64,000 nt of DNA from an uncultured Thalassolituus sp. (GTDB taxonomy: Bacteria; Pseudomonadota; Gammaproteobacteria; Pseudomonadales; Oceanobacteraceae): positions 62,001 to 126,000 of the forward strand of contig NZ_CATMFB010000009.1 in the NCBI RefSeq assembly GCF_950066645.1, given 5' to 3'. The first letter of the stretch is position 1, and every line of letters starts with the position of its first letter. The notes beneath the pieces were generated by a model. It was not told where the DNA came from and searched no databases. It was given only the letters and a program-made list of their open reading frames with translations. This document shows positions 31,358 to 44,018 of the stretch, in pieces. Position numbers and translations under genes: made by a program.

Positions 31358-31693
31358 CTAAACGTCCCCATCGCCTCCCCCAGCTGCATCGTTACTGTTG
31401 CCATAACCCGACTCTTCACTGCCATCCCGGCTTGGAGCGAATACGCCAGCCAAAAAAATGTAACTCAGCAATGGTATTGAATCTTTCTTCTTCGTCTGGG
31501 CAAAGTCATCCCCAAGCGCAGCAACAGTAATCGCCGGACCAATTAAGGGAAGAAGCCAAGCCAATAGATAGATTGCACGCTTCTGGCCAGCTTCGAGTGA
31601 TTCGGATCGAGATACATGATATGAAACAAAACTCGCCAAGTAGAGCACCAGGCTAGCAAAAATGATAAATAAGGTTATTCCCAAATAACTCAT
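31358..31693 (-). CDS. Small two-segment membrane protein of unknown function
   Basis: A 111-residue protein with two membrane segments (about residues 3-27 and 41-60) and a hydrophilic tail rich in Gly, Asp and Asn (SEESGYGNSNDAAGGGDGDV). The RAIYLLAWLLPLIGPAIT segment resembles phage- or integron-borne small membrane proteins. It starts with ATG at 31693 after an AAGGA box, a better ribosome-binding site than in the cassette genes to the right. No attC-like palindrome follows it, so it probably lies outside the array. Confidence 0.6.
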   Translation of the reverse strand: MSYLGITLFIIFASLVLYLASFVSYHVSRSESLEAGQKRAIYLLAWLLPLIGPAITVAALGDDFAQTKKKDSIPLLSYIFLAGVFAPSRDGSEESGYGNSNDAAGGGDGDV

Positions 31694-31792
31694 AGTTATC
31701 CTTAAGGTTCACTGCCGCGATAGCCGGAAAGTGACGCCAGTCCTAGAAAAGGCGTTGAATTATTCTCTGTCCGGAACGAATCTTACCGATGA

Positions 31793-32149
31793 TTAAGCAT
31801 GTAAACGAGCCTTATTAAAGTATAGTAGAGGTAAGCCTATAACCAATGCTAGCGACCAATCATAGAGCCATAACCCAAGTAATGTATGGGTAGCAATCAC
31901 ATACATTACCTGCAAAGGATACTTGTTACTAAACAGCAATACACCACACGTAGCACAAGTAACCATTGATAAAATAGTTAGATAGAAATACCCAGCGCCG
32001 TCTTCCGTTAAGGCACTGACAAGTATGTCTCCAGCAGCCTCATAGGTGCTCATCGTTTCAGGCTGGGCAACGAATAGCAGAATTAACCAAACACCTAGAA
32101 AATTAATTACACCAGGAACGCAAAGCACACCAGCCATCTTAAAATTCAT
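31793..32149 (-). CDS. Four-segment membrane protein of unknown function
   Basis: A 118-residue membrane protein with hydrophobic stretches at about 5-28, 50-68, 74-90 and 92-112. The ATG at 32149 is preceded by GGGGGA; a GTG at 32167 is possible. AT-rich codon use differs from the core genes and is closer to the cassette region. It lacks a recognisable attC on its 3' side, but a degenerate one may lie just upstream (32209-32275), which would make it the last or a decayed unit of the array. Function unknown. Confidence 0.55.
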   Translation of the reverse strand: MNFKMAGVLCVPGVINFLGVWLILLFVAQPETMSTYEAAGDILVSALTEDGAGYFYLTILSMVTCATCGVLLFSNKYPLQVMYVIATHTLLGLWLYDWSLALVIGLPLLYFNKARLHA

Positions 32150-32208
32150 AATCCCCCTAAGATACACAAAGTTCCGCCGTGGAACGTGTACCTCCTACGC
32201 GCCCCAGC

Positions 32209-32275
32209 AATAACCCCAATAGCCCTTACGAGCGGTTTGTAGTATCAAAAAGTTTCATCGGTTGGTTATAAGCGT
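32209..32275 (-). repeat. Possible degenerate attC site
   Basis: AATAACCCC at the left and GGTTGGTTATAAG at the right form complementary core-like ends around a 40-base middle, and the stop codon of the gene at 32278 abuts it as in the clear cassettes. The inner arms pair poorly, so this may be a decayed attC or chance. Confidence 0.3.
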
Positions 32276-32277
32276 TC

Positions 32278-32904
32278 TCAGAGTTCAATTTTACGCCCCC
32301 TATACCCGCCTCCACCTTTCGTTAAGGTCCATTGCTTCCACCCTGTAGATTTAAACTTCAGACCAGAGTTAGACTTCAACGTTTCGAGATACTGCTGTAA
32401 ATGTACTCCACTACTCTCAATAGGAACAGTAAGGTCAAGCCTACCAGTAGAGTTTTCAGAGAGATGAAGATCAAATCGTGATATCCCAAGATGCTGTGGA
32501 CTTTTGCCTTGGCTTACAAAATTCGCGTAATCAACTGGGTTTTGAAATTCTAGCGCGACGCCTGAATCATCCGTAAGTTGAAAGAAGTACTTCACGTAAA
32601 GTTCTAAGGGCCCTACTTCGGTCTTCATTATCGGGCGCAATCCTTCCAACCTTTCTGCGATATCATATAGTTCTTCCTGAGTTGCCACCCACTGATGCCG
32701 CATATATCGCCCAAGATCCGTCCAACCATATATCTCGTAGCGCTCCTTCATTTCACTGATAATGAAACTTGAAAAATCTGCTGGAGTGTCATGTCCTTCG
32801 TATAGGTATATACAAACATAGTCCGGTTCAGAGCATTGCGTGCAACGATCCAAGAATGCCTGCACTCTTCTCAGCGGCTTAATGAAACCCTTTCCCAGGC
32901 TCAT
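32278..32904 (-). CDS. Unknown protein, possible cassette gene beyond the IS remnant
   Basis: A 208-residue soluble protein starting MSLGKGFIKPLRRVQAFLDRC; the true start is uncertain because a GTG 84 bases upstream is also in frame. CTQCSEPDYVCIYLYEG near residue 20 has three cysteines. The rest is mixed alpha/beta (MRHQWVATQEELYDIAERL, LEFQNPVDYANFVSQGKSP) and ends GGGGYRGRKIEL. I do not recognise it. It is separated from the cassette array by a decayed transposase gene and may originally have been a cassette (see the candidate attC at its 3' end). Confidence 0.55.
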   Translation of the reverse strand: MSLGKGFIKPLRRVQAFLDRCTQCSEPDYVCIYLYEGHDTPADFSSFIISEMKERYEIYGWTDLGRYMRHQWVATQEELYDIAERLEGLRPIMKTEVGPLELYVKYFFQLTDDSGVALEFQNPVDYANFVSQGKSPQHLGISRFDLHLSENSTGRLDLTVPIESSGVHLQQYLETLKSNSGLKFKSTGWKQWTLTKGGGGYRGRKIEL

Positions 32905-33002
32905 GGAACCACTATATGTAAAAGCGCCTTTTCTCACTCTCTGACCCTTGATCCTACCCACGAAAAGTAAACACCATTCCAGGCACACTTCTCGTGATAT
33001 TC

Positions 33003-33415
33003 CTATTCATACTCTGCTGGGCTGTTATAGCCTACCGCAGAGTGCCTTCGCACTCGGTTACAAAGCGGTTCGATGTATTCAAATACGAGCTAGTACGCTT
33101 CCTGCTTTGTCGTCAGCTGGTCAGCGTAAACGGATTCAACTTTGAGCCTTGGGAATTGATTCCATGACGGCGTTGTCCCAGCAGTTTCCCTTTCTGTTCA
33201 TACTAGGCCGTATGCTTTTGCTGAGCAACCGATGCAGATATTCCCCTGAACGATACCGCACTCCGCGGTCCGAATGAAGGATCAGACCAGCCTTCACCTA
33301 CCGTAAGTCATACGCCATCTGGCAGGTATCTATGACCAGCTGATTCGTCATGCTGAAGTCCAGCAACCATCCGATGATATCTCTCGAGTAAAGATCCATC
33401 ACAACGACGTATCAA
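33003..33415 (-). mobile_element. Remnant of an IS3-family transposase gene (OrfB C-terminal part)
   Basis: On the minus strand, three broken frames rebuild the catalytic core of an IS3-family OrfB: MDLYSRDIIGWLLDFSM, a stop, [17 protein letters not shown] (second catalytic Asp), [14 protein letters not shown] (catalytic Glu), then after a frame change [18 protein letters not shown], a stop, and LVFEYIEPLCNRVRRHSAV to the natural end SPAEYE at 33003. The N-terminal half with OrfA, the first catalytic Asp and any clear terminal repeats are missing. At least two stop codons and one frameshift make it non-functional. It has replaced the 3' flank of the GNAT cassette at 33426. Confidence 0.88.
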
Positions 33416-33425
33416 TCAAAATTAA

Positions 33426-33911
33426 CTACCGCGAGATCTGAAATGCGATACGCTCATCACCCCAAGAGTTCCTCACCTTGCCACAGCGCTGGAATCCCTT
33501 GGCCTCCAACAACCTCTGCATCGGCAGGTTGTCCGCGTGAGTGTCAACTTTAATATCCGAACACGCATTGAGACACCAATGAATACAGGAAGCTCCCACG
33601 CCAAGCCGTGCTTCCAGTACCGCCAAACGATGGACAACAGAGCACGGTCTGTCATTGAGCCACGCCCCATCGTATAGATCTTTGTACGTATCGTCTTCTT
33701 CATCAAGCAGCGCGAAGCACCCAACCAAGCGACCGTTTTGCCTGCATACGTACAGCCAACCAGACTCAATATCTTTTAATATAAGCTCCCGGGTTGGATA
33801 ACCTTCCCGCCATTGCAGTGGGTTTCCGGATCGTATCATTGTTTCTCTTGCCGACACATAGACGTGCATTATAGTGTCGATCTCTCTGGATTCAGCGCGT
33901 GATATTTCCAT
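33426..33911 (-). CDS. GNAT-family N-acetyltransferase (cassette gene)
   Basis: A 161-residue GNAT protein: acetyl-CoA-dependent transfer to an amine. The fold is visible from IMHVYVSARETMIRSGNP, through WLYVCRQNGRLVGCFALLDEED (beta-4) to the CoA-binding region RLAVLEARLGVGASCIHWCL, where the usual Q/R-x-x-G-x-G/A is replaced by ARLGVGAS, and NLPMQRLLEAKGFQRCG near the C-terminus. The acceptor is unknown. It lies at the edge of the cassette array; its attC is not present, apparently lost when the transposase fragment came in. A weak attC of the neighbouring cassette lies upstream. Confidence 0.8.
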   Translation of the reverse strand: MEISRAESREIDTIMHVYVSARETMIRSGNPLQWREGYPTRELILKDIESGWLYVCRQNGRLVGCFALLDEEDDTYKDLYDGAWLNDRPCSVVHRLAVLEARLGVGASCIHWCLNACSDIKVDTHADNLPMQRLLEAKGFQRCGKVRNSWGDERIAFQISR

Positions 33912-34046
33912 AGATTACCTGACTGGAAGATAGGAACGGCGTACTAGTTTACGACGAAAACCTTCAGTATATTTGATGTACTTTTCTTCGCATTCGTTGT
34001 CATTTAAAGATCCTCATTAAGAAGTAGAGAGGTGTCTAATTTTTAT

Positions 34047-34107
34047 GGGTAACTCGGAGGGCTATCGCCGATGACACGTGCTTGTCGCGTACTCAGTCTT
34101 GTTAATG
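34047..34107 (-). repeat. attC site (degenerate)
   Basis: Left core GGTAAC (34048-34053) and right core TTGTTAAT (34099-34106) bracket an imperfect palindrome; the short arms GGAG/ACTC pair weakly. The stop codon of the gene at 34102 lies within the right core, as at other cassettes here. Degenerate but in the expected place. Confidence 0.5.
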
Positions 34108-34428
34108 GTCTGGCAGTGCCGCTTTACTGCCTGCGTAATATCCTTTTTTGAACAGTAATGTAGTGCTGCCGATCTGCAATGCATTTGGGTCTAATCCAGC
34201 GCGTTGCGCCTCCGCTGTTGCTTCGATTGGGACTGCTCCCGCTACATCTTTGGCGATACGACCATACGAAACATCTGGCGCCAGCTCTCTCAGCATAGAC
34301 TCTATCTCGCTAGTGGTGACAAATTGCTCCACCCAAGCCGTTTGCCATTTACTTGACTGAAGGTACAGGTAGCAGTTCAGTGTAAGAGAAAGCAAAAGCA
34401 ATGCTGGAATAATGTATTTGGTCATCAT
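34102..34428 (-). CDS. Unknown membrane-anchored small protein (cassette gene)
   Basis: A 108-residue protein with one N-terminal hydrophobic segment (YIIPALLLLSLTLNCYLYL, about residues 5-23), either an anchor or an uncleaved signal, and a soluble remainder exposed to the periplasm. The soluble part has VPIEATAEAQRAGLDPNALQ and ends STTLLFKKGYYAGSKAALPDH. No family recognised. Two ATGs follow each other at 34428 and 34425 directly behind the upstream attC core, with no Shine-Dalgarno box. Confidence 0.6.
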   Translation of the reverse strand: MMTKYIIPALLLLSLTLNCYLYLQSSKWQTAWVEQFVTTSEIESMLRELAPDVSYGRIAKDVAGAVPIEATAEAQRAGLDPNALQIGSTTLLFKKGYYAGSKAALPDH

Positions 34429-34433
34429 CTGGC

Positions 34434-34514
34434 TATTAACGCTCCGCTAAACGATGAGCGCTAGCGAGTCCTGCCCACGCTTTTTCTGGGCGATTTTTTA
34501 TTGCCTTGTTAATG
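34434..34514 (-). repeat. attC site of the 34519-34803 cassette
   Basis: Left core TTAACGCTCCGC at 34436, right core CTTGTTAAT ending 34513. In between, GAGCGCTAGCGAGTC and GCCCACGCTTTTTCTGGGC give the usual imperfect stem of an attC. About 80 bp. Confidence 0.8.
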
Positions 34515-34518
34515 GTCT

Positions 34519-34803
34519 TTACTCCTCAATTGGATAGTAAGTGAAACCCGAATATATGTTCTTGTGCTCCTTTGGCATTTCATGAGTCATCTTTACTTCT
34601 AGCTCAGGTTCGACACCGAAAATTAGAGTAGAATCTGCACACAACTCAAGTTCAACTTTTAGCTGATGAATTACAATTTGAGCTGCCTCGTATTCTGTAT
34701 CAGCCTCAATCCGACGCGTTGCGAAAAAACCAGCTTTCTGAACCTTACCATTAACTTCAAACATGTAAGGCTCCCCCTGAACGAATATAACGAAGTTCTT
34801 CAT
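34519..34803 (-). CDS. Unknown small soluble protein (cassette gene)
   Basis: A 94-residue protein starting MKNFVIFVQGEPYMFEVNGKV, with GFFATRRIEADTEYEAAQIVI and a C-terminal IYSGFTYYPIEE. The pattern of an N-terminal beta-hairpin, a helix around EYEAAQIVIHQLK and a final beta-strand is similar to small integron-encoded alpha/beta proteins, but no family is assigned. It has its own attC 3' of the stop. It starts close to the truncated attC of its neighbour. Confidence 0.6.
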   Translation of the reverse strand: MKNFVIFVQGEPYMFEVNGKVQKAGFFATRRIEADTEYEAAQIVIHQLKVELELCADSTLIFGVEPELEVKMTHEMPKEHKNIYSGFTYYPIEE

Positions 34804-34808
34804 ATGAC

Positions 34809-34845
34809 CATTAACGCCCCGCTAGACGGCGGGTGATCTGCTACC
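34809..34845 (-). repeat. Truncated attC of the 34841-35290 cassette
   Basis: ATTAACGCCCCGCTAGACGGCGGGTG shares its first 20 bases (TAACGCCCCGCTAGACGGCG) with the full attC at 35299-35387 but then runs into the stop codon of the gene at 34841. The second half, including a GTTA core, is missing. It looks like an attC that lost about 50 bases. Confidence 0.65.
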
Positions 34846-35290
34846 TTATTTCCTCACTTGCTACTATTATAAAAAGAAGCTCCAATGACTCTGATATTAG
34901 CTCCAACTCGGCACTCTTTTTATTTTCAATATAGATTTGCCCAGGCTTTTGATCATCTGAAAGAAAACCAATGTCTCCGGATTTGCCGCAACCAGAGAAG
35001 CTTCCTATTTTAATAAACTTACTATTGCTTGTAGAAGGCTCTGGGGAGCGGATCTTAAAACTTTCATTTATGTCACAGACACCAAATGTTTCAAAGCAAT
35101 CTAGCATCATGGGAGAAACAGATCTCGCCATTTCCAATTCATCTGAAGTAAACCACCTCAGCCTTTTGTAAATCTTGGGTCTAAACATAAAGAACTCCCT
35201 CAAAAAGGATTTCTTTGGCGACCAAGTTCGAATCTCAGCCTTTGCCTCTACCCACATCTCCTGAAATTGCTTTCTATTGTCTTGATTCAT
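34841..35290 (-). CDS. Unknown soluble protein, possibly SUKH/SMI1-like (cassette gene)
   Basis: A 149-residue protein. WFTSDELEMARSVSPMMLDCF, FIKIGSFSGCGKSGDIGFLS and GQIYIENKKSAELELISESLE have the rhythm of SMI1/KNR4 (SUKH) immunity-type folds (helix, then a G-D-rich strand, then an I-Y-strand and a C-terminal helix), but the match is only by eye and weak. The N-terminus is basic (AKAEIRTWSPKKSFLREFF). Its 3' attC is truncated, so this cassette may no longer be mobile on its own. Confidence 0.55.
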   Translation of the reverse strand: MNQDNRKQFQEMWVEAKAEIRTWSPKKSFLREFFMFRPKIYKRLRWFTSDELEMARSVSPMMLDCFETFGVCDINESFKIRSPEPSTSNSKFIKIGSFSGCGKSGDIGFLSDDQKPGQIYIENKKSAELELISESLELLFIIVASEEIR

Positions 35291-35298
35291 GATAAGTA

Positions 35299-35387
35299 GC
35301 TAACGCCCCGCTAGACGGCGAGCGAAGCGAGTCCTAGTGAAGGCCACACTTTTTGTGGCCGTAACGAAATTCAGCGGTTTGTTAGCA
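35299..35387 (-). repeat. attC site of the 35391-35822 cassette
   Basis: GCTAACGCCCCGC at the left, GCGGTTTGTTAGC at the right: the cores are exact inverse complements over GCTAAC/GTTAGC. The middle AAGGCCACACTTTTTGTGGCC forms a stem. About 89 bp; nearly identical to the attC at 37872-37965. Confidence 0.92.
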
Positions 35388-35390
35388 GCT

Positions 35391-35822
35391 TCAACGAAAG
35401 TTCTGTTTATAGCGATTTTCATCCCACTCCTCTCCGAATCCGGAGCTTCCTATCAATGCCTTCGAAAATCCGCGCTGATGATCCGCGTATACAGCAGCGA
35501 TTGGACTGTCTCTGTAGAGGATTGAAAAGCTGCCGGAAGTAGACGACCACCCAATCTTTAGACTGGACGTATCAAGTGAATCAATGATTGCGGATTCAGA
35601 AGCGTATCTATTTATCAATACTGGCGTAGCTCCTTCAGCCATTGCTACCTTATTGAAATCTTCCCGGGACTCAATCGGGCTATATAAAAATACATCTTTC
35701 AGGATATTCCCACGATCAGACTCAATTAGGTAAGCCCAACATGAGGCTCCATCATTTTCAACTAAAACAGAATATCTTCCATCAGGACTGTCAAACTTCA
35801 GTCGGAACTCATCCATAGGCAT
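35391..35822 (-). CDS. Unknown soluble protein (cassette gene)
   Basis: A 143-residue protein from ATG 35822 (MPMDEFRLKFDSPDGRYSVLV); a second ATG lies two codons later. FDSPDGRYSVLVENDGASCW suggests an opening beta-sheet, WAYLIESDRGNILKDVFLYSP a second strand pair, and a later WSSTSGSFSILYRDSPIAAVY a further sheet. No catalytic or membrane motif is seen, and I do not recognise a family. Gene start follows the neighbouring attC by 14 bases without a clear ribosome-binding site. Confidence 0.58.
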   Translation of the reverse strand: MPMDEFRLKFDSPDGRYSVLVENDGASCWAYLIESDRGNILKDVFLYSPIESREDFNKVAMAEGATPVLINRYASESAIIDSLDTSSLKIGWSSTSGSFSILYRDSPIAAVYADHQRGFSKALIGSSGFGEEWDENRYKQNFR

Positions 35823-35836
35823 GACCACCAAATCCT

Positions 35837-35895
35837 GCTAACGCCCGCGTAATGGGCGCGAGCTTGCGAGCGTCCTAATTGACGCGTTTGTTAGC
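35837..35895 (-). repeat. attC site of the 35891-36667 cassette
   Basis: GCTAACGCCCGCGTAA at the left and GACGCGTTTGTTAGC at the right; stem CGCGAGCTTGCGAGCG inside. 59 bp, one of the short attC forms. The stop codon of the cassette gene lies inside the right core. Confidence 0.9.
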
Positions 35896-36667
35896 TGCAT
35901 GCCCATGCAATTGCGAGTTTATCTTTGTGACTCTCGCATTGTGTTATATGTGAGCAGCCTACATCTCCAAACATATATGGGAGATTATCCTCTGAATCTA
36001 TTTGGAAAATGAGTTTCATGGGTGTTCCACATTCAGGACAATCGGGATATTCAACCCCCTGCACCCAATATGGCCAGCCAAGAAGCTTATCCTTCGGTAG
36101 GGGGTACTCCATGTCACAAAGCAAATCACTTTGCGCATCGGTCAACGTTACCCCTAAATTTTCAAGCTCTTCCCAATTGGGGTAATCTTCCTTTGATTCC
36201 CAGCCTATTATTTGCCTTTCCGGAAAGGCATCTTTGACGGGGCTTAAATCAGGTGACGCTATTACTTCACTTTTATAGTCAACAACTCTTACTAAAGTAC
36301 TCTTTGAAAAAGGAAAGAATGCTTCACAGTTAACCTCACATTCTTTATCCCAGTTTGTGCAGTAAAAAACTTGCAGCATTCCCTCTCCGAACAAATTTTT
36401 CTCCGTCGCAGGGAGCTCTTGAGAGTTTAACTGTAAGAATAGCTGCATAGGCTCATTGCAGTTGCTACAACAAGGCCACTTTTCATCTCTCGAAATCGCT
36501 GGAACACCAGAAAATTTTGAAGACGTAGGGTTAGAGGCTTTTTCTAATGTGTTCGGGAACCAAGCCACCCTTCTATGTGACTCTAATATCGGCTTGAGAC
36601 TCTCCCAGTTTTCTTTGGGTGAAGACTCAGATTCCTTTTTCTTGAATATATTGAAGATATTCATCAT
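35891..36667 (-). CDS. DUF1963 (YwqG-like) protein (cassette gene)
   Basis: A 258-residue soluble protein of the DUF1963/YwqG family: KFSGVPAISRDEKWPCCSNC near residue 55, the repeated strand LQLNSQELPATEKNLFGEGMLQVFYC (seen as QLFLQLNSQELP then GEGMLQVFYC), KLLGWPYWVQGVEYPDCPECG, and a C-terminal GDVGCSHITQCESH. Four CxxC pairs suggest metal binding. The family has no proven biochemical activity; members appear beside polymorphic toxin genes and in integrons, so an immunity role is possible. Starts at ATG 36667 or the next codon. Confidence 0.8.
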   Translation of the reverse strand: MMNIFNIFKKKESESSPKENWESLKPILESHRRVAWFPNTLEKASNPTSSKFSGVPAISRDEKWPCCSNCNEPMQLFLQLNSQELPATEKNLFGEGMLQVFYCTNWDKECEVNCEAFFPFSKSTLVRVVDYKSEVIASPDLSPVKDAFPERQIIGWESKEDYPNWEELENLGVTLTDAQSDLLCDMEYPLPKDKLLGWPYWVQGVEYPDCPECGTPMKLIFQIDSEDNLPYMFGDVGCSHITQCESHKDKLAIAWACS

Positions 36668-36688
36668 TCACCTGATCCATTTTTGACA

Positions 36689-36819
36689 GCTAACGTCGCC
36701 AACAGCGGCAGCCTTGGTGTGTGCCCATTTGTGCTTGAATGGCGTAGCCATGTGCAAATGGGCGCACACCAAGGCTGTCCAAGGGAGCGAAGCGACCGAA
36801 CTGCTTGGCATTGTTAGGC
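36689..36819 (-). repeat. Long attC site (131 bp) of the acetyltransferase cassette
   Basis: Cores GCTAACGTCGCC and GGCATTGTTAGGC bracket a very long, nearly perfect stem: CAGCCTTGGTGTGTGCCCAT pairs with ATGGGCGCACACCAAGGCTG, with a loop over 36735-36765. The length resembles the 120-130-bp attC repeats of Vibrio, unlike the 60-95-bp forms in the rest of this array. Confidence 0.92.
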
Positions 36820-37315
36820 TATAGATTGATCGAGTAGACCAAGAACTCTCGTCCATTACGCTCGAAACTTCCAACTTGCAAGAACCCATTAGACTCGTAA
36901 AGGTGATGCGCCGCAACCATGGATCGCTGAGTCCATAACACCATTTTAGAGCAACAGTCTGCTCTTGCCTCTGCAATCGCTTGAGCCACTAGGCGCTTAC
37001 CTAATCCTTGGCCACGAAACTTAGACCTTACACCAAGCAACTGCATCTCGACCTCTCCGTCTTTTGCGAGTCGACTTGCCTTTGAACCAGGCGGGCCCAA
37101 ATCGCTATGCTCGCAAGCTCAAAGCTCTCTCGATTGCGAATACCAAAGATGGCCCCCCTATCTCGTACCGCAGTTGCTTCAAATATTTCTTCTGCAAGTT
37201 CCGAATCTGTGAATCCTCCATCTACATAGACTTCTTTCAGAATCTCGGTAAGTTCAGAATCTACAATCTTAAGGTTTTCTGAGGTATCAAATTCAAAATT
37301 CACATCGGCTTCCAT
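36819..37315 (-). pseudogene. Frameshifted GNAT acetyltransferase (cassette gene)
   Basis: Two overlapping frames together encode one GNAT protein of about 165 residues. The first (from ATG 37315) gives MEADVNFEFDTSENLKIV to ESFELASIAIW; the second resumes GPPGSKASRLAKDGEVEMQL with the acetyl-CoA loop VRSKFRGQGLGKRLVAQAI (consensus R-x-x-G-x-G/A at RGQGLG) and a C-terminal LYESNGFLQVGSFER. One extra G in the run at 37093-37098 would join them as IWGPPG. The loss is either a real mutation or a homopolymer sequencing error. The 131-bp attC follows. Confidence 0.82.
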
Positions 37316-37329
37316 GCGGAGTGATAAGA

Positions 37330-37410
37330 GCCTAACGCCCGGCCTTGTGGCGCGCGCTTTTTGCGCGTCCTGCCACGCTTTTCAGTGGCTTCAACGGCCG
37401 CTTGTTATGC
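37330..37410 (-). repeat. attC site of the DUF4240 cassette
   Basis: GCCTAACGCCCGGCC at the left and GGCCGCTTGTTATGC at the right; internal stems GCGCGCGCTTTTTGCGCG and GCCACGCTTTTCAGTGGC. About 81 bp and almost the same sequence as the attC at 39973-40052. Confidence 0.93.
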
Positions 37411-37411
37411 A

Positions 37412-37858
37412 TTACTTCCAACCAGCTATGTTTGAGTAAGTTTCATAGCTTAGCGTCGTTACGTGATTATATTCCTTCCCGGTCTTTCGCTCGTATGCGG
37501 AAGAACCGACATACAATAAAGATTCAAATTCCATATCCTTCGGGAACGACTCTGGGTTACTTAATACTTCACTATATAAATCCTGGCCGTTAGCAACTAC
37601 AACACACCTCGAGTAAAGAAATGAGTCAGGTGAAAAATACTCGTTTTCATTGATATACGATTCTTCACCAATCTCCTTCGCATGAGCGCGATTATCCAAC
37701 GCATGAAGCTTTTGAGCTAGTATCTCTTCGAACTGAAAAATTTCATCTATCGACTTTTTTGAAAGTTCAATTACCGCCGGCTCAATAACGGCTTCATCAT
37801 TTCCCTCATGACTCCAATCAAAAAGTGCAATAATCATCCAAAATGCTGCTTCAGTCAT
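37412..37858 (-). CDS. DUF4240 domain protein (cassette gene)
   Basis: A 148-residue soluble protein. The opening FWMIIALFDWSHEGNDEAVI and the phrase LSKKSIDEIFQFEEILAQKLHALD (here SKKSIDEIFQFEEILAQKL) followed by Y-x-N-x-x-x-FSPDSFLYSRCVVVANG match the DUF4240 family, which is spread among bacteria and common in mobile DNA but has no known function. The protein is acidic overall. It lies between two attC sites of different types. Confidence 0.78.
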   Translation of the reverse strand: MTEAAFWMIIALFDWSHEGNDEAVIEPAVIELSKKSIDEIFQFEEILAQKLHALDNRAHAKEIGEESYINENEYFSPDSFLYSRCVVVANGQDLYSEVLSNPESFPKDMEFESLLYVGSSAYERKTGKEYNHVTTLSYETYSNIAGWK

Positions 37859-37871
37859 GAATTCTCCCTAT

Positions 37872-37965
37872 GCACAACGCCCCACCAGAAGGCGAGCGAA
37901 GTGAGTCCTAGTGAAGGCCACGCTTTTTCTTGTGGCCGTAACGAATTTCAGCGGTTTGTTATGTG
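37872..37965 (-). repeat. attC site of the Imm35-like cassette
   Basis: Left core GCACAACGCCCCACC, right core GCGGTTTGTTATGTG; middle GGCGAGCGAAGTGAGTCCTAGTGAAGGCCACGCTTTTTCTTGTGGCC in short pieces GAGCGAAGTGAGTC and GGCCACGCTTTTTCTTGTGG. About 94 bp, a near copy of the attC at 35299-35387. Confidence 0.9.
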
Positions 37966-37970
37966 TTGGA

Positions 37971-38255
37971 CTACAACGCTGCTTCGTATTCATTTATATA
38001 GTGCTCTATATCATGTGCTGTGCCAGTTACGGTAATTGCACCAGTTTCTCGATTTACTATGTATGGAGCGTTTCCGCAAACCATGTGTCGAAAATCACTA
38101 GATTCTAAATAGGCCTTACTCTGGTAGAAAAACACCCAGCCCCAAGACTTTTCAATGGTCTCATCTTCAAGCACAACGCATTCTATCGGGTCATGCGGAT
38201 CTTGAATACGAGAAATTTCGGACTCTACGAGTTTCTGTGCGTCTTCTCTATTCAT
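37971..38255 (-). CDS. YrhB/Imm35-like small protein (cassette gene)
   Basis: A 94-residue protein matching the YrhB/Immunity-35 family: N-terminal helix DAQKLVESEISRI, then KSWGWVFFYQSKAYLES, then GNAPYIVNRETGAITVTGTA and the final helix DIEHYINEYEAAL. Family members are predicted to neutralise toxins of polymorphic toxin systems; E. coli YrhB has also been described as chaperone-like. No toxin gene is adjacent, so here it would be an orphan immunity gene. It begins at ATG 38255, just after the odd TGATCCTACC motif. Confidence 0.8.
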   Translation of the reverse strand: MNREDAQKLVESEISRIQDPHDPIECVVLEDETIEKSWGWVFFYQSKAYLESSDFRHMVCGNAPYIVNRETGAITVTGTAHDIEHYINEYEAAL

Positions 38256-38270
38256 ACTGGGACCCTGATC

Positions 38271-38337
38271 CTACCCAAGCAAAGGCGCGCGTAAGCGCGT
38301 CCAGCCCAAAGGGCGATTTTTCCTTGGCTTGTTAGCA
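38271..38337 (-). repeat. attC site with altered core (38332-38739 cassette)
   Basis: The right end CTTGGCTTGTTAGC is normal, but the left core reads CCTACCCAAGC instead of the expected TAAC-CCAAG, so the crossover triplet GTT of the opposite strand is changed to GTA. Inner stem GGCGCGCGTAAGCGCGTCC and GCCCAAAGGGC are intact. Confidence 0.7.
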
Positions 38338-38739
38338 CCGATTTAACTCGTGAAGAACTTCTAATGCCAAGAATCCCCAGGTCGAGCCCGTACCGGGCTT
38401 ATGTTCATTAATTTCTACTTTAGAAGTAACATCGTCCCAAAGATAGAGCTCGATTACCTTACTGCGATTTTCATCTAAATCCATTTCAAATTCGTAGAAT
38501 CTCGCATCTGGAGTAAGAATAATTCCTTCGTCTGTACTCACGCCAGGGAAATCCTGTTCGTACTGTAATAATATGCTTTTCGCTGTATCTACACCTTTCT
38601 CCTCCAAGGCAATGGTAAGCCCTTTCGGAATGCCATTCTTTCGCCAGTAAGACGCCTCTTGATAAATCCGATGCTTTTCCAAGGCATTCTGCTCTTGAAC
38701 ATTCAGCTGGCGCTTCTTCTTAAGATATTCGATGTCCAT
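38332..38739 (-). CDS. Unknown soluble protein (cassette gene)
   Basis: A 135-residue protein: a charged N-terminal helix pair (MDIEYLKKKRQLNVQEQNAL, HRIYQEASYWRKNGIPKGLT), then a beta-rich half with RFYEFEMDLDENRSKVIELY and LWDDVTSKVEINEHKPGTGS, and a terminal helix LALEVLHELNRC. I do not recognise a family. Its stop codon lies in the right core of its attC. The start ATG at 38739 sits ten bases after the next attC core. Confidence 0.6.
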   Translation of the reverse strand: MDIEYLKKKRQLNVQEQNALEKHRIYQEASYWRKNGIPKGLTIALEEKGVDTAKSILLQYEQDFPGVSTDEGIILTPDARFYEFEMDLDENRSKVIELYLWDDVTSKVEINEHKPGTGSTWGFLALEVLHELNRC

Positions 38740-38749
38740 GTTATGTAGT

Positions 38750-38808
38750 GCTAACGGTTCAAGAAGAGGCGCCGATTTTCGGCGTCCCTCTTGCTTGATT
38801 TGTTACAC
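38750..38808 (-). repeat. attC site of the 38811-39227 cassette
   Basis: GCTAACGGTTCAAGAAGAGG at the left, CCTCTTGCTTGATTTGTTACAC at the right; stem GGCGCCGATTTTCGGCGTCC in the middle. 59 bp. Confidence 0.88.
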
Positions 38809-38810
38809 GA

Positions 38811-39227
38811 TTATTTTGCAGTATGGTCATAAAATAGGACCTCTAAACCTGGCTGCATAGTACGTATTTTAGGTTGATATAAATAGCAGCTGATTCTAGC
38901 ATAATTGTCTAGGTCGCTGCCTACCATACAAGTTTGCTCAAAGTTGATTTCACTTTCTTTGAATCTAATACGAAGCACCTTTGCGTCACCATTCAGTGCG
39001 GATTCAATTGCCGCAATACCTTTGGTGCATCTGCCATTTATTTCACGAACCACCACTAGCTTGCCTTTATTATCTGCGATCTCAACTTTGCCGTGGTAGG
39101 TTGCGTTTGAATCTAGTACTTTACCAACAAGTATATACTTGCCCTGTACCATCATGTGCAAGAAGTTATCTTCTGCTGAACAGAAAAATGGAAATAGTAT
39201 TAGCAATATTGCAATCGTTCTTTTCAT
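38811..39227 (-). CDS. Exported small protein of unknown function (cassette gene)
   Basis: A 138-residue protein with a clear signal peptide (MKRTIAILLILFPFFCSA, cleavage before EDN). The mature part, about 120 residues in the periplasm, is beta-rich: YILVGKVLDSNATYHGKVEI, GKLVVVREINGRCTKGIAAI, LRIRFKESEINFEQTC and a final GLEVLFYDHTAK. Three cysteines could form one disulfide. No family is recognised. ATG 39227 is chosen over one seven codons upstream because it gives a proper signal sequence. Confidence 0.65.
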   Translation of the reverse strand: MKRTIAILLILFPFFCSAEDNFLHMMVQGKYILVGKVLDSNATYHGKVEIADNKGKLVVVREINGRCTKGIAAIESALNGDAKVLRIRFKESEINFEQTCMVGSDLDNYARISCYLYQPKIRTMQPGLEVLFYDHTAK

Positions 39228-39230
39228 GAC

Positions 39231-39311
39231 GTGTAACGCCCGCAGCAAAGGCGAGCAACTTGTTGCGAGTCCAGCACACGAAGTGTGCGATTTTGCCTGC
39301 GCTTGTTAAGT
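39231..39311 (-). repeat. attC site of the 39306-39608 cassette
   Basis: GTGTAACGCCCGCAGCAAAGGC at the left and GCCTGCGCTTGTTAAG at the right; inner stem CAGCACACGAAGTGTGCG. About 81 bp with good pairing of both outer arms. Confidence 0.9.
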
Positions 39312-39608
39312 GTTTGACTGACGTACATAGTAAGTTAACCAGTATATTGGAGCGGCCACGATGTTAAAAAATAACATAGCAAATCCGATAGCAACACGAG
39401 CTTTTTTAGGACCTGACTGGAAAAAATTCCCCAGCATCCAGAACCAAAGCACTGTAGCTGATATGAACCCTACATCGATTAAGTAATCTATCGTCACTGG
39501 AATTTTTTGCCCGACTAACAAGGCATCCCAGTAAGAACTGAATGAGAGCCCAAATAACGTCACGGTGAATGCAAAAAGCAATCCACTGATAATCTTACGT
39601 ATATTCAT
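39306..39608 (-). CDS. Small membrane protein (cassette gene)
   Basis: A 100-residue protein with about four membrane segments (MNIRKIISGLLFAFTVTLFG onwards, then around 38-60, 70-90). The loop FFQSGPKKARVAIGFAMLFF separates segments 2 and 3 and is basic, so it faces the cytoplasm. No enzyme or transport motif. First of three adjacent cassettes that encode only small membrane proteins. Confidence 0.6.
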   Translation of the reverse strand: MNIRKIISGLLFAFTVTLFGLSFSSYWDALLVGQKIPVTIDYLIDVGFISATVLWFWMLGNFFQSGPKKARVAIGFAMLFFNIVAAPIYWLTYYVRQSNT

Positions 39609-39615
39609 AGATACA

Positions 39616-39676
39616 TTTAACGCCAAGCTAAGCGGCGCAGCTTTGCTGCGTCCTTGCTTGAGCGCCTTATTATGTT
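39616..39676 (-). repeat. attC site of the 39678-39956 cassette (degenerate right core)
   Basis: TTTAACGCCAAGCTAAGC at the left; the right arm GCTTGAGCGCCTTATTATG has TTATTATG in place of TTGTTATG. Stem GGCGCAGCTTTGCTGCGTCC is intact. About 61 bp. Confidence 0.82.
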
Positions 39677-39677
39677 T

Positions 39678-39956
39678 TTATTGCTTATTCTCTGTACCAA
39701 ACCCAAATAGATAACCTGCAATCGCACCAAGGATACCTATCGCAGCAGACTCAGAGCTTGGGTTCAGAACCGCCAATATACTTGCAAATGTAGCAACTAT
39801 AACGATACCGGTTATTCGCACATTAAAAGTGCCAAAGCCTTCTTTCATGTGAGAGAACACCTTTACGATTGCGAATACCCCAAAACCAAGAACAGCCAGG
39901 ATCGCTATACCTCTATTAATATCCATTTGAAATAGCACTTTTATAAAATCTTCCAC
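39678..39956 (-). CDS. Small membrane protein (cassette gene)
   Basis: A 92-residue protein with three likely membrane segments (GIAILAVLGFGVFAIVKVFS, RITGIVIVATFASILAVL and AIGILGAIAGYLFGFG). The last segment, glycine-rich and ending FGTENKQ, is reminiscent of small proteins of unknown function found in phage and integron cassettes. No signal-peptide cleavage site. Nothing in the sequence points to a ligand. Confidence 0.6.
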   Translation of the reverse strand: MEDFIKVLFQMDINRGIAILAVLGFGVFAIVKVFSHMKEGFGTFNVRITGIVIVATFASILAVLNPSSESAAIGILGAIAGYLFGFGTENKQ

Positions 39957-39972
39957 GGTTTATCCCTAAAAA

Positions 39973-40052
39973 CATAACGCCCGGCCTTTGGGCGCGCGCT
40001 TTTTACGCGTCCCGCCACGCTTTTCAGTGGCCTCAACGGCCGCTTGTTACTG
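39973..40052 (-). repeat. attC site of the 40060-40353 cassette
   Basis: CATAACGCCCGGCC at the left and GGCCGCTTGTTACTG at the right with inner stems GCGCGCGCTTTTTACGCG and GCCACGCTTTTCAGTGGC. A near duplicate of the attC at 37330-37410, differing at few positions. Confidence 0.93.
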
Positions 40053-40059
40053 ATGCCAA

Positions 40060-40353
40060 TCATAGACAGTCTCCCAAACTACACGCAGAAATCAAGCTTG
40101 TCCAAAAGATGGCAAATATTAAGTAAGCTGCGAAAGCCAACCACGCCAGCAACTTCTTTGTAGGTGACTGAATAACAACATTGCTAAAAAAGTACGCCCC
40201 TACAATTGCCGAAATAATTACCCATAGAAACTGAGATGAAAAAATAGCATTCGCAAACTTAAACCAATACGAAGAATAAACGGCTACAACCGAGATCACG
40301 ATCGGCATGAGTAAAGCTGGCAACAACGATTTCAGAGTTTGACCTGTATTCAT
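40060..40353 (-). CDS. Small membrane protein (cassette gene)
   Basis: A 97-residue protein with three membrane segments (LLPALLMPIVISVVAVYSSY, FLWVIISAIVGAYFFSNVV and LLAWLAFAAYLIFAIFWTS). Two cysteines near the C-terminus (ACSLGDCL) lie outside the last segment. Third of the consecutive membrane-protein cassettes. No recognised family. Confidence 0.6.
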   Translation of the reverse strand: MNTGQTLKSLLPALLMPIVISVVAVYSSYWFKFANAIFSSQFLWVIISAIVGAYFFSNVVIQSPTKKLLAWLAFAAYLIFAIFWTSLISACSLGDCL

Positions 40354-40360
40354 AAGCAGT

Positions 40361-40407
40361 AGTAACGCCCAAAGCAGCGGTTTATCCGCTGCCTTTGCTT
40401 GTTACAT
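40361..40407 (-). repeat. Short attC site of the DUF1444-like cassette
   Basis: AGTAACGCCCAAAGCAGCGG at the left, CCGCTGCCTTTGCTTGTTACAT at the right: a 47-bp palindrome with a 5-base loop TTTAT, near the minimum for a functional attC. The cassette gene stop codon overlaps the right core. Confidence 0.88.
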
Positions 40408-41262
40408 GTTGAACTCTATCCATTTATCACCTTTTCGAACAAAGCCTACTTCAGAGACTATATGAGACCACTGATTTTCAGGGTTATACACAATACTTCT
40501 AACTTTTTTTAGGCCTTCGACATCGTTAGAGCCTGTAACAAGCACCACATCTCTGGATGGTACATAAACAACTATATCTCCATTAACAGGGAAATTATCC
40601 TTTGTCCAAAGGTCGTCATAAAGTAAAAAAGATGCTTCATAAGTACCATCAGCCACAATCATCGAGATAGTTGACGGGTCACCTTCGATCTGTACTGATG
40701 GTATAGCCTTCTTCAAGTTGGCCATAGAGAGACTTTTTAATTCTTCTTCCTTTACACCTAGCTTGGCTATGTCTTCCTTCGGCATATACTTGATAGAAGA
40801 CGGTGTATCAATAGCGTAAAGAATATATAGCACCTCATTTAGTTTTTCGTAATAGAAGGGAAATTCTCCATCACTCTCATTTCTTTTCATCAGTGCAGTT
40901 ATCTGCGCAATGTACTCGATATCTTTAATAACGGGAAAGATATGACTCTTTTCCATCTTAACTTTAACGTCGGAGTTACTTTGCATTAGTGCTTTGCTAT
41001 AGCTTTCGATTACAACGTCTAGCTCATATGGGCTTGAACGATAATTTTTGTAGGCGTTATCAAGGTATGTTGTAGATTCTTCTCCATCACTGTATGTCAC
41101 CTCGACTTCTAGATGTCCTTTAATTTCAGCTTTAACTCCCTCTATTTTCGAAGAAATCGCGTTCACATACCTTTGAGCAAACTCTTTTTCACTTATAATT
41201 TCATCAGCAAAACTATTACCGACAAAAAAACATATGAAAGAAAGTATAACTATTCTTTTCAT
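40402..41262 (-). CDS. Exported protein resembling DUF1444 (cassette gene)
   Basis: A 286-residue protein, the largest in the array, with a signal peptide (MKRIVILSFICFFVGNSFA, cleavage before DEI). The C-terminal half resembles DUF1444/YtpQ proteins: ISMIVADGTYEASFLLYDDLW, GDIVVYVPSRDVVLVTGSND and VEGLKKVRSIVYNPENQWSH. The N-terminal half is helical and charged. DUF1444 proteins are normally cytoplasmic and uncharacterised; an exported version is unusual. Low-GC codon use (AAA, ATA, TCA) contrasts with core genes. Confidence 0.68.
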   Translation of the reverse strand: MKRIVILSFICFFVGNSFADEIISEKEFAQRYVNAISSKIEGVKAEIKGHLEVEVTYSDGEESTTYLDNAYKNYRSSPYELDVVIESYSKALMQSNSDVKVKMEKSHIFPVIKDIEYIAQITALMKRNESDGEFPFYYEKLNEVLYILYAIDTPSSIKYMPKEDIAKLGVKEEELKSLSMANLKKAIPSVQIEGDPSTISMIVADGTYEASFLLYDDLWTKDNFPVNGDIVVYVPSRDVVLVTGSNDVEGLKKVRSIVYNPENQWSHIVSEVGFVRKGDKWIEFNM

Positions 41263-41293
41263 TATTCATCCAATTCCTGGTTATCTAAATACA

Positions 41294-41396
41294 TGTAACG
41301 CCGCGCACAGCGGCTGGCGAAACTGGCGGTTTTTGTGCTGCGCAGCTGCACAAAAAGTGAAAGGTTTGACAGTCCGTTGCTGCGCCTTGTTATGCG
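41294..41396 (-). repeat. attC site of the 41399-41758 cassette
   Basis: TGTAACGCCGCGCACAGCGG at the left and CCGTTGCTGCGCCTTGTTATGCG at the right; central stem TTTTTGTGCTGCGCAGCTGCACAAAAA. About 103 bp, one of the longer ones. Confidence 0.9.
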
Positions 41397-41398
41397 CA

Positions 41399-41758
41399 TT
41401 ATGGGCCTTCAACTATTAGAGCTAATCTGTTCTGACTGCGCAGAACTTTTTTACAAAGATAAATTAGCTGAATGATGTAGCTATTTAGAACTTCATCATT
41501 TAATAGTTCATTTAGAAAATTAAACTCTTCAATTACCCATTGAATCTCAGATTGATTGTATTCCCATCTTAGACTTACATTTTCCGGCATGTGGGCAGAA
41601 AACTGTAGCCTATATGCTTTAGCAACTCCAAATATACACTCCGCAATACTTTCTGGCACATACACGCCATCATCCTCAGACTCAGGATATTGAGAGCTGC
41701 TCGCCCCTGCAGGTAAAACAGCAAAAGTATATTCAGGTTCTTCTAGCATTTTTTCCAT
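41399..41758 (-). CDS. Unknown acidic protein (cassette gene)
   Basis: A 119-residue acidic soluble protein: YTFAVLPAGASSSQYPESED, then a helical half with IAECIFGVAKAYRLQFSAHM, IQWVIEEFNFLNELLNDEVL and LIYLCKKVLRSQNRL. No membrane segment, signal peptide or catalytic motif is seen, and no family is recognised. ATG 41758 lies 26 bases after the neighbouring attC with no strong ribosome-binding site. Confidence 0.58.
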   Translation of the reverse strand: MEKMLEEPEYTFAVLPAGASSSQYPESEDDGVYVPESIAECIFGVAKAYRLQFSAHMPENVSLRWEYNQSEIQWVIEEFNFLNELLNDEVLNSYIIQLIYLCKKVLRSQNRLALIVEGP

Positions 41759-41783
41759 TTAATTGAACTACACCAGCTATGGC

Positions 41784-41843
41784 GCATAACGCCCGCATCA
41801 GTGGGCGGAACGTAGGCTGCTCCACTGCATGCGATTGTTATGC
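41784..41843 (-). repeat. attC site of the 41858-42178 cassette (first in reading direction)
   Basis: GCGCATAACGCCCGCATCAGTGG at the left and CCACTGCATGCGATTGTTATGC at the right; 60-bp imperfect palindrome with good outer-arm pairing. Confidence 0.9.
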
Positions 41844-41857
41844 ATTTGGACCTACTT

Positions 41858-42178
41858 TTATCGCATATTCTTGTACTTGACGACAAATTCTTTGGCCTGT
41901 TCAAGTGTATCTGGATATGGAACAGTATCCTTATCTTTCGGGCCTACACGTATCTTTTGAAATCTAAACCCGTGATCAAACAAAAACCTCACCTTTTGCC
42001 ACTGTTTTAGATCGCCCTTCTTCGGCGCTTTAAAGTGACGCCCCAGATTATGAGCTACCCCTCCGCAATGAGGACACTTCATTTCAAGCGGAACTCCATC
42101 GGTTAGAACAAATTCCCGTTTAAATGATTTGCGGCAATCGAAGCACGCAAAAGCCATATTGTAAGGTGTTCTATCCAT
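41858..42178 (-). CDS. Unknown protein with a two-CxxC zinc-ribbon-like head (first cassette gene)
   Basis: A 106-residue basic protein. FACFDCRKSFKREF and MKCPHCGGVAHNLGRHFKAP place two CxxC pairs 20 residues apart, as in a zinc ribbon. The C-terminal half (KQWQKVRFLFDHGFRFQKI, LEQAKEFVVKYKNMR) is helical and basic, which would suit nucleic-acid binding; this is inference. It is the cassette nearest the presumed attachment end of the array, hence likely the most recently captured if the array was once active. Confidence 0.65.
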   Translation of the reverse strand: MDRTPYNMAFACFDCRKSFKREFVLTDGVPLEMKCPHCGGVAHNLGRHFKAPKKGDLKQWQKVRFLFDHGFRFQKIRVGPKDKDTVPYPDTLEQAKEFVVKYKNMR

Positions 42179-42638
42179 TTACGATCCCATATTCATGGTT
42201 ATGATGGCACAATCACGAAGATGCTTAACAGTTTATTCGTGAGCGTGCTCATTTACACACCCCTGTCCCTTTCAATATTTCGAGCATAACCCCCTAGCAC
42301 CACTATGAAAAGTGCCTGAGGCGACGCCTTTTGCCAGCGTGAAAGCGTGCGTGTTCATTTACACACCGGAGGCATCTTTACATTTGGCACATTATCGCGC
42401 CGGGCTTGATTATAACTATATTATTTATATAGGCTATTTTTTGTTGATAAGCTTCATGGCGTGCTTGCTCATTTTGCTTTGATCCTGAAAACGCGCATTG
42501 TATTGAACAGATACCGAAATATACTGTTTATTCATCCATGTGTTTTTCATGAGAGAAGTTGATCCTACTGCGGCCAGATTTTCACACAAAAACGCCGGGC
42601 GTTGCCCGGCGTTTTGATGTTGCTTGTCGCTCTGAATC
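42179..42638. other. Gene-free stretch at the presumed leader end of the cassette array (candidate attI, no integrase)
   Basis: About 400 bases before the cysS terminator hold no credible gene. Seen here: a core-like GCTTAAC at 42223-42229 (GTTAAGC on the cassette strand); a direct repeat GCGTG-CTCATTTACACACC at 42243-42260 and GCGTGCGTGTTCATTTACACACC at 42345-42367; an AT-rich block at 42405-42446 with TTGATT and TATAAT-like boxes; and TACTGTTTATTCATCCATGT at 42522-42541, a weak match to a LexA box. In a complete integron this is where attI, the cassette promoter and the divergent integrase gene would be. The integrase is absent. Interpretation as an attI relic is inference. Confidence 0.4.
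42586..42617 (-). terminator. Intrinsic terminator of the glnS-cysS operon
   Basis: CAAAAACGCCGGGC-GTT-GCCCGGCGTTTTGA: an 8-10-bp GC-rich stem with a T-rich tail on the minus strand, 22 bases after the cysS stop. Confidence 0.9.
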
Positions 42639-44018
42639 TTATGACTTCGACCAGGTTGTTCCCTCTGGTCCGTCTTTCAACACAATGCCCTTCGCTGCCA
42701 GCTCGTCACGTACCGCATCAGCGGTTGCGAAGTCTTTAGCTTTTTTGGCTTCGAGACGTTTCTGGATCATTTCTTCAATCCATTCTGCTTCGTCACCGGC
42801 ACCTGATTGCAGGAAGTCCTGAGGCTCAGCCTGCAAAATACCCAGTACGCTACCGAGGTATTTCAGCTGGCTGGCCAGTGCGGCCTTTTCAGACTCACTT
42901 GCTTTGTTCACTTCGCGTACCAGATCAAACAGGGCCGCAAGGGCTTCTGGCGTATTGAAATCGTCGTCCATGGCGGCATGGAAGCGTACAGAGAACTCGT
43001 TGTCGATGTCCTTAGTGTCCGAGTCTGAGGAAACACCAGCATTCTGCAACGCATTGTAGAAACGTTCCAGCTTTACCTGAGCTTCCTGTAGGTGCTCTTC
43101 AACGTACATGACGTGCGAGCGGTAGTGGCTAGATATGAGAAACAGACGCACGGTCTCGCCGTTGTACTTCTCCAGAATGTCGCGGATGGTAAAGAAGTTG
43201 CCCAGTGACTTGGACATTTTTTCCGCACCTAAGCGCAGCGCACCGGCGTGAATCCAGGTGTTCGCATAGGTCTTACCGGTCGCGGCTTCAGACTGGGCAA
43301 TTTCGTTCTCGTGATGAGGGAATTTGAGGTCCGGACCACCGCCGTGAATGTCGAAGGTGTCACCTAAGCAGCACGTCGACATGGCTGAACATTCTATATG
43401 CCAGCCCGGCCGACCGATGCCCCATGGCGACTCCCAGTGTGGCTCATCTGCTTTCGCACCCTTCCAAAGCGCGAAATCCAGCGGATCTTCTTTAACATCG
43501 CCGACTTCGACACGAGCTCCGGATTCCAGCTCATCAAGCACTTTGCCAGAGAGTTTTCCGTAACCATCAAACTTACGCACACGATAATATACATCGCCAT
43601 TGTCGGCGGCGTAGGCATAGCCTTTTTCAATCAGTGTTTCGATTAAACGAAGAATGTCGCCAATATGACCAGTCGCCCGAGGCTCTGAAGACGGGCGCCC
43701 CATTCCTAGCTGGTCGAAGTCTTCATTCATCGCAGTAGCAAAACGTTCAACTAATTCGAGGAATGGCTCACCATTTTCATTTGCACGGTTAATGATTTTA
43801 TCGTCAATGTCGGTGATATTTCGGATGTAATTTACGTCAAAACCCTTATGACGCAGATAACGCACAATAAGATCAAACGCCAAAAATGCTCGGGCATGCC
43901 CCAGGTGACAGAAGTCGTAGACGGTCATTCCACACACATACATGCCGACCTTGCCGGGTACGAGTGGTTTGAATTCTTCTTTCTGTCGGGTCAGGGTGTT
44001 AAATATTTTTAACGTCAT
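42639..44018 (-). CDS. cysS: Cysteinyl-tRNA synthetase
   Basis: A 459-residue class I synthetase that charges tRNA-Cys. The HIGH-type motif is [12 protein letters not shown] (about residues 36-47), and KMSKS appears as [12 protein letters not shown] (about 266). Zinc ligands include the Cys in [10 protein letters not shown], Cys in [13 protein letters not shown] and the [11 protein letters not shown] histidines. The C-terminal anticodon-binding part ends [17 protein letters not shown]. Three bases separate it from glnS, so both synthetases are translated from one mRNA, the order seen in Pseudomonas (PA1795-PA1794). Confidence 0.97.

Follow-up and report, generated by a model that had tools for sequence, protein, structure and literature searches.

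Integrons typically carry one attI site, placed close to the integrase gene intI, according to the IntegronFinder authors (PMC9024848, accessible part), who also describe attI sites outside class 1 as poorly characterized and undetected by IntegronFinder. Cassette arrays without an integrase in the locus are termed clusters of attC sites lacking integron-integrases (CALIN). Off-target insertion, loss of intI and rearrangement have been proposed as their origins in the accessible part of PMC8618304, and a CALIN has been reported in a genome without intI (PMC7923331, accessible part). Pseudogenes of intI are frequent and some genomes encode more than one intI (PMC2426708, accessible part). Here we describe a cassette array located between cysS and folD in an uncultured Thalassolituus sp., within a stretch of 64,000 nucleotides (the window; contig NZ_CATMFB010000009.1, C9 below, positions 62,001 to 126,000). 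The array has no integrase and is headed by an attI with its leader. It probably belongs to a distributed integron, in which one integrase, broken in this genome, would have served many attI platforms in trans.

The array resembles a CALIN in its tandem attC cassettes and in the lack of intI in the locus. It differs in having its own attI and leader, and several attI platforms per genome are absent from the accessible part of PMC8618304. With sedentary chromosomal integrons it shares an attI at the head, a large number of cassettes whose function is mostly unknown and a locus kept between species; those integrons are ordered as intI-attI-array, whereas no intI is present here and several platforms occur per genome. 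The CALINs of Xanthomonas (PMC12444791) also represent arrays at conserved loci away from intI, but no attI of their own is mentioned in the accessible text, whereas the array in the window has one. Delta-attI cassettes (PMC12901181, accessible part) are likewise attI copies outside the usual place. However, these are attI pieces that lie inside arrays as cassette ends, whereas the leader-attI units described here head separate arrays. The core of attI2 from class 2 integrons in the same article, AATAAAATGTTRRRY, is one base away from the window core AATAAACTGTTAAGC, in a comparison made by eye and restricted to the core. Among the articles listed in a literature search, whose scope took in few subscription journals, no mention was found of a second, duplicated, orphan or solo attI, and no title or opening of an abstract dealt with dispersed attI platforms. 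The attI-headed arrays without integrase, several per genome and across much of this marine family, are not proven to be novel.

The attI-headed array at the cysS locus

The attI, which the original prediction had overlooked, is located at 42226-42554 of the window, between cassette 1 and cysS (42639..44018, minus strand, identified by family match), the host gene ahead of the platform. This head segment aligned with the segment from the integrase gene to the first cassette on contig C11 of the same genome, and blastn detected the intI-linked copy at E 3.8e-48. The attI core (CACGCTCACGAATAAACTGTTA, 42226..42247, minus strand, crossover GTTA at 42226-42229) was identical in its letters to the core beside the broken intI on C11, and in alignments the homology among attI copies stopped at the GTTA crossover. 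The head segment is also the attI of integrons with an intact intI in two relatives (G005 and G007). Judged by its homology to intI-linked attI sites and by the homology break at the crossover, 42226-42554 is an attI by descent that stands without intI.

The leader (42248..42554, minus strand), homologous to the intI-attI interval of C11, appears to combine a putative cassette promoter with a relic of the intI promoter. Promoter prediction gave four weak promoter-like sites in the leader versus 1.5 expected, one of them on the cassette strand, and we infer that the leader carries the cassette promoter Pc. A degenerate LexA-box-like site was identified by alignment at 42521..42540 (minus strand); the copy linked to intI has an intact CTGT-N8-ACAG, which we take to be the LexA-box consensus. 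None of the viral contigs searched for the attI core carried it.

Searching the own genome with an integron-integrase model identified one gene only, on C11, in two pieces and below the cut-off; no intI was found near the array or elsewhere in the genome. The C11 gene is interrupted by an in-frame stop close to its beginning and has lost about 85 residues together with a shift of frame; it adjoins its own attI, a second array and a pgpA-like gene. Since it is a pseudogene, the arrays of this strain should be frozen. Its loss looks recent, because relative G005, whose attI unit matches the C11 one at 98% identity, keeps an unbroken intI over the cut-off. The original prediction, which was made from the sequence of the window alone, was right that the locus lacks an integrase. 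It also held that mobilisation would need an integrase supplied from elsewhere, and such a gene does exist on C11, although in a broken state. Tyrosine recombinases at C9:152026, on C16 and on C4 were considered as integron integrases and rejected, as they did not match the model. A tandem repeat of about 20 bp in several copies was seen by eye between the broken intI and pgpA on C11 (L009, 15331-15560).

Two types of attI, alpha and beta, pair with two types of intI. A pgpA-like gene lies beside an alpha intI in G000 (the own genome) and G005 (stretches L009 and L064) and beside a beta intI in G001, G003 and G008 (L055, L059 and L062), as if the pgpA locus had swapped its integrase type between species. 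It is next to intI in G000 and G005, yet is 8.6 kb away in G007.

The array itself comprises 17 minus-strand frames at 33426-42230, of which 16 are open and one is a frameshifted GNAT gene, as had been predicted. The attC sites were searched with a covariance model (R1) trained on 30 sites from seven other genomes, without any site of the window. These training sites were picked by a structural scan; their 100% pairing therefore exists by construction and was not used as evidence. Applied unfiltered to the full window, R1 gave 14 matches with E-values of 5 or less; all were minus-strand matches and fell within 34437-41840, in agreement with the 14 or more matches in one direction expected by the original prediction. 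For 12 of the 14 the E-value was below 0.001, and the two weakest had 0.095 and 0.23. A stricter, spacer-aware structural scan of the window detected nine sites, all minus and all inside the array, and the same threshold yielded four sites in total over 20 Markov-resampled windows. When the bottom strand was folded as single-stranded DNA, an R stem, an unpaired spacer and an L stem were obtained for 10 of the 14 sites. The R stem was absent from two sites (39615-39675 and 38266-38337), and the attC-type fold was not obtained for two others (37872-37964 and 34434-34514). The array is real, as the matches to a model built from attC sites of other genomes, the structural scan and the folding of the bottom strand together show. 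None of its attC sites was detected by a strict RYYYAAC/GTTRRRY scan, which is blind to them because the outer core bases are swapped with each neighbour. A relaxed core scan gave sites mixed with noise and was superseded by the spacer-aware scan and R1. A search of 33000-42700 against Rfam gave no match up to E 0.1.

With more than the two tandem attC sites that define a CALIN (14 matches in one direction) and no integron integrase nearby, the array is a CALIN by definition, as had been proposed. The term leaves out that the array possesses an attI and a leader, both homologous to those linked to intI. Compared with a complete integron, it has an attI at its head, identified by homology, and lacks intI in cis.

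In the sister-genus genome G011, folD (81% identical) follows cysS directly, in convergent orientation and about 100 bp apart. In the window folD is present, but 9.3 kb from the array end. The arrangement in G011 bears out the proposed insertion between folD and cysS; the alternative of an expanded ancestral integron locus fits in part, the locus being one of several platforms kept between species. No intI was found at the cysS locus in eight genomes of the genus including the own (a further one, G004, had no cysS match). Judged by eye, sequences resembling attI were present at cysS in seven of these eight, four of the alpha and three of the beta type, and G007 showed no clear attI. R1 detected attC sites at the locus in five of the eight (own, G001, G002, G003 and G005) and none in G006, G007 and G008. 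The structural scan gave one site each in G006 and G007 and none in the short stretch of G008.

Platforms in the genome and in the family

The own genome contains at least six attI platforms with attC sites behind them, and one degenerate copy. Copies on C9 (window), C11, C14 and C5 were found by blastn of the head segment, and the core pattern added those on C4 and C8. A neighbouring gene of the C4 copy that looked amt-like by eye failed confirmation and was discarded. A second attI on C14, missed by the core pattern and by a looser one, was located through an attC match at C14:95590; over 315 bp, its head resembles that of an intI-linked beta-type copy at 82%. Behind the degenerate copy on C5 attC sites were searched and none was found. 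R1 detected at least 19 attC sites in the genome (150 of 883 candidates were scored), and all 19 lie behind an attI copy.

Cassette 6 of the window has a 92% identical copy on C8, and the homology runs from the crossover of the preceding attC to the crossover of its own attC. Cassette 13 has a copy in G001 (88%) with exact cassette ends, at a cysS platform with a different attI type. The first cassette behind the second attI of C14 (L243, from 3553) is 87% identical over 1058 bp to the first cassette of L094, an Alteromonadales bin, where it also lies behind an attI (from 151). When 49 platform segments of eight genomes were compared within each genome, a whole-cassette pair between platforms was found in the own genome only. 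A 427-bp pair in G014, 95% identical, was rejected as a cassette copy because it is not bounded by attC and R1 found no attC in either stretch. Four platforms of the same genome (L201, L203, L205 and L207) share a repeat of about 300 bp, with 83-94% similarity.

Three loci without intI are common to several species: cysS, locus B beside fadA and locus C beside dinB. Locus identity was based on the cysS gene for the first and on aligned flanks for B and C. All nine pairs compared displayed the same pattern: identity was 67-96% over the 55 nt that end at the crossover and 18-35% over the 55 nt that follow. By the same measure, three intI-linked pairs gave 73-98% before the crossover and 18-29% after it. 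Host genes were named with NCBIfam, in one or two genomes per gene, as fadA (L051 and L066), dinB (L054), ilvH (L191), acnB (L052) and trmL (L070). At L054 (G001:C7; attI end 9671, minus strand), dinB, encoding DNA polymerase IV, occupies the place of intI, is directed away from the array and has an intact LexA-like box ahead; similar flanks occur in G003:C18 and G008:C22. Elements with the same start were seen by eye at the attI crossover in L045 (G003:C21), L061 (G008:C22) and L040 (G010), the last of which begins with an IS110/IS1111-like IGIDLAK.

The surroundings of attI were analyzed in 40 copies fetched from six genomes (11 from G063, nine each from G070 and G014, seven from G017 and two each from G018 and G000), each taken with some 1 kb of preceding and at most 4 kb of following sequence. 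An attC in the same direction lay behind attI in 29 of the 40 copies, within 1 kb in 17, and in none of the 40 was an attC present within the preceding 1 kb or on the other strand. An intI or a piece of it was located ahead of attI in 12 copies, nine of them in G063. Tandem attI pairs on one contig were observed in L094 (151/5332), L065 (3464/8464) and L170 (6318/9065), with attC sites between the two attI in L094 and L170.

In a survey of 44 genomes of the family, several of them incomplete, the attI-core pattern with at most one mismatch gave 175 matches in 34 genomes, and a reversed-pattern control gave two. For intI, 31 of the 44 genomes yielded 40 matches over the cut-off in total, some of them partial, and 29 of the 40 fell in the 34 genomes with attI. 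Among these 34, attI outnumbered intI in 31, and 11 had no intI over the cut-off. The complete genome G070 encodes nine attI and one intI. In 13 order mates outside the family, three core matches were found in two genomes. A stricter core detected 59 stretches in a named genome collection, with about four chance matches expected by our own estimate. About 40 belong by title to Thalassolituus, Oceanobacter and relatives; the remainder are mostly from Halomonas/Vreelandella and Microbulbifer. No intI was seen in 48 of the 59 with Thalassolituus queries, which a divergent intI could escape, and some stretches are short ahead of attI. Short intI pieces were present in T. marinus (L101) and SAT97 (L097).

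Genome G063 has 11 attI, one intI over the cut-off and four more below it, and an intI or pieces of it lie ahead of nine of the 11. In four places a block consisting of a transposase remnant resembling that of an insertion sequence (IS), intI and attI was found, about 96-99% alike, and one further place has a shorter block. In two places only 363-381 bp are present, 98-99% alike, reaching from an early position within intI to attI. These graded blocks therefore support a course in which intI-attI was copied first and intI disappeared later. In the genus of the window, the homologous segment begins immediately before the start codon of intI, as would be expected from an ancient loss of the gene at those sites. 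The stretches L225, L226, L228 and L229 of G063 share the IS-like left end TAGCAGGCTGTTGA, in which one letter varies in two of them, and the transposase remnant. The IS-like element is a possible carrier of platform copying in this genome.

Cassettes of the array

Cassettes are numbered from the attI; all features lie on the minus strand, open reading frames (ORFs) were taken from the ORF list unless stated otherwise, families were assigned by family match and attC sites are given with their R1 scores. Cassette 1 (41858..42178), with a weak zinc-ribbon match below the cut-off, is followed by attC 1 (41787..41840, 37.1 bits), and cassette 2 (41399..41758) by attC 2 (41296..41392, 41.4 bits). 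Cassette 3 encodes a DUF1444 protein (40402..41262; attC 3 at 40363..40404, 38.2 bits). Next to it are cassette 4 (40060..40353; attC 4 at 39975..40049, 51.4 bits) and cassette 5 (39678..39956; attC 5 at 39618..39672, 25.1 bits). Cassette 6 (39306..39626; attC 6 at 39234..39308, 49.1 bits) is the one copied at the C8 platform, and cassette 7 (38811..39248; attC 7 at 38752..38805, 40.2 bits) has an 80% match in G005:C88. The site of cassette 8 (38332..38739), attC 8 (38272..38334, 25.9 bits), shows an altered right core. Cassette 9 encodes an Imm35 immunity-like protein (37971..38255) with a weak attC 9 (37875..37961, 16.7 bits, E 0.095), and cassette 10 a DUF4240 protein (37412..37858; attC 10 at 37333..37407, 47.8 bits). 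The GNAT gene in two frames is cassette 11 (36819..37315), followed by the long attC 11 (36691..36816, 31.5 bits). A DUF1963 protein is encoded by cassette 12 (35891..36667; attC 12 at 35839..35893, 45.2 bits). Cassette 13 (35391..35831; attC 13 at 35301..35384, 37.6 bits), identified by comparison, is the one with a copy at the cysS platform of another species.

Cassette 14 (34841..35290) is followed by a relic of which by eye only the right half is left (attC 14, 34812..34840), and cassette 15 (34519..34803) by the weak attC 15 (34437..34511, 15.2 bits, E 0.23). In cassette 16 (34102..34428), the stop carries the R'' box of a lost attC. The last frame (33426..33911) is GNAT-like and adjoins an IS3 remnant; since it has no attC, its membership in the array is uncertain. 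Comparing ORF ends with the starts of R1 matches, 14 of the 17 genes have their own attC. The palindrome that was said to follow each gene is thus present for these 14; truncated relics follow two others (34841-35290 and 34102-34428), and the last GNAT gene has none. Nor do many stops lie inside the right core, as had been claimed, since only five of the 17 overlap the R'' box. No match was obtained with PADLOC for the 10 of 17 cassette products searched.

At the far end of the array, a fragment of an IS3-family transposase below the family cut-off was found at 33136-33297. Left of it, at 31358-32988, are three short minus-strand frames with attC-like remnants seen by eye and no R1 match, possibly decayed old cassettes.

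Origin and meaning of the platforms

That the arrays are attI platforms is well supported. The layout in the window is a leader, an attI and about 16 cassettes without integrase. Such platforms probably arose when an intI-attI segment multiplied to sites beside housekeeping genes and intI was then lost at all places but one. The remaining integrase would have acted in trans on all attI platforms: recombination between attC sites (attC x attC) would have excised cassettes from one array, and these would have been inserted at the attI of another. The identity of attC and attI, the copy number, the absence of intI, the turnover behind a kept attI and one whole-cassette copy between two platforms can be read directly from the DNA, and we infer, as the best reading of them, that orphan attI were served in trans by IntI. 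For the family as a whole, an integron in which a single integrase under SOS control serves as many as about ten attI platforms on the chromosome, each maintained by selection in a fixed gene neighbourhood and exchanging cassettes, is a proposal that we hold with scarcely better than even confidence.

Several points weigh against the distributed integron. The complete genome G017 has seven attI and no integrase, and platforms therefore persist without service. The core pattern is unmatched in 10 of the 44 family genomes, eight of them in genus g3. Some genomes with no intI other than a beta-type one carry alpha-type orphan attI. The turnover behind attI could date from the time when a platform had its own intI, or could come from homologous exchange of whole loci, and only a single whole-cassette pair between platforms was found in the 49 segments of eight genomes. 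This last point also speaks for the idea that every platform was filled by its own intI and frozen after the loss of that gene, with no action in trans. The intI genes or pieces beside attI in G063, the short pieces in T. marinus and SAT97 and the LexA-box relic without intI in the window are in line with it as well. However, no compared species has intI at cysS, B or C and the sequence behind attI differs in all nine pairs, cassette 6 is present on two orphan platforms, and independent loss of intI would be required in every species. We therefore regard filling by local integrases as rather unlikely.

The IS-linked intI-attI blocks of G063 could also suggest that whole arrays spread by segmental duplication instead of capture at each attI. 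This is very improbable given that the platforms of the own genome share one cassette only, with exact cassette ends. An off-target insertion of cassettes at a chance attG between cysS and folD, giving a plain CALIN, would agree with the lack of intI nearby and the empty site in G011, but it leaves the 330-bp leader-attI, homologous to an intI-linked one, at the head of the array unaccounted for, and deserves hardly any credence. We would be equally surprised if the 330-bp segment were a dispersed promoter or a repeat like a miniature inverted-repeat transposable element (MITE) without a role in recombination. It does occur in several copies per genome with conserved LexA-like and leader blocks; however, its homology gives way to unrelated cassettes at the GTTA crossover, attC sites occur only on the crossover side and strand, and it serves as attI beside an intact intI in G005 and G007.

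The distributed integron, which we consider probable, departs from the usual picture of one attI beside one intI, with 175 attI-core versus 40 intI matches in the 44 genomes. If true, part of the so-called CALINs would be landing platforms and not debris. As IntegronFinder is blind to attI outside class 1, such platforms would go unseen. They would offer a natural system for testing IntI in trans and the effect of array position on cassette expression, and, if this reading is correct, cassettes would flow between many expression sites of one genome.

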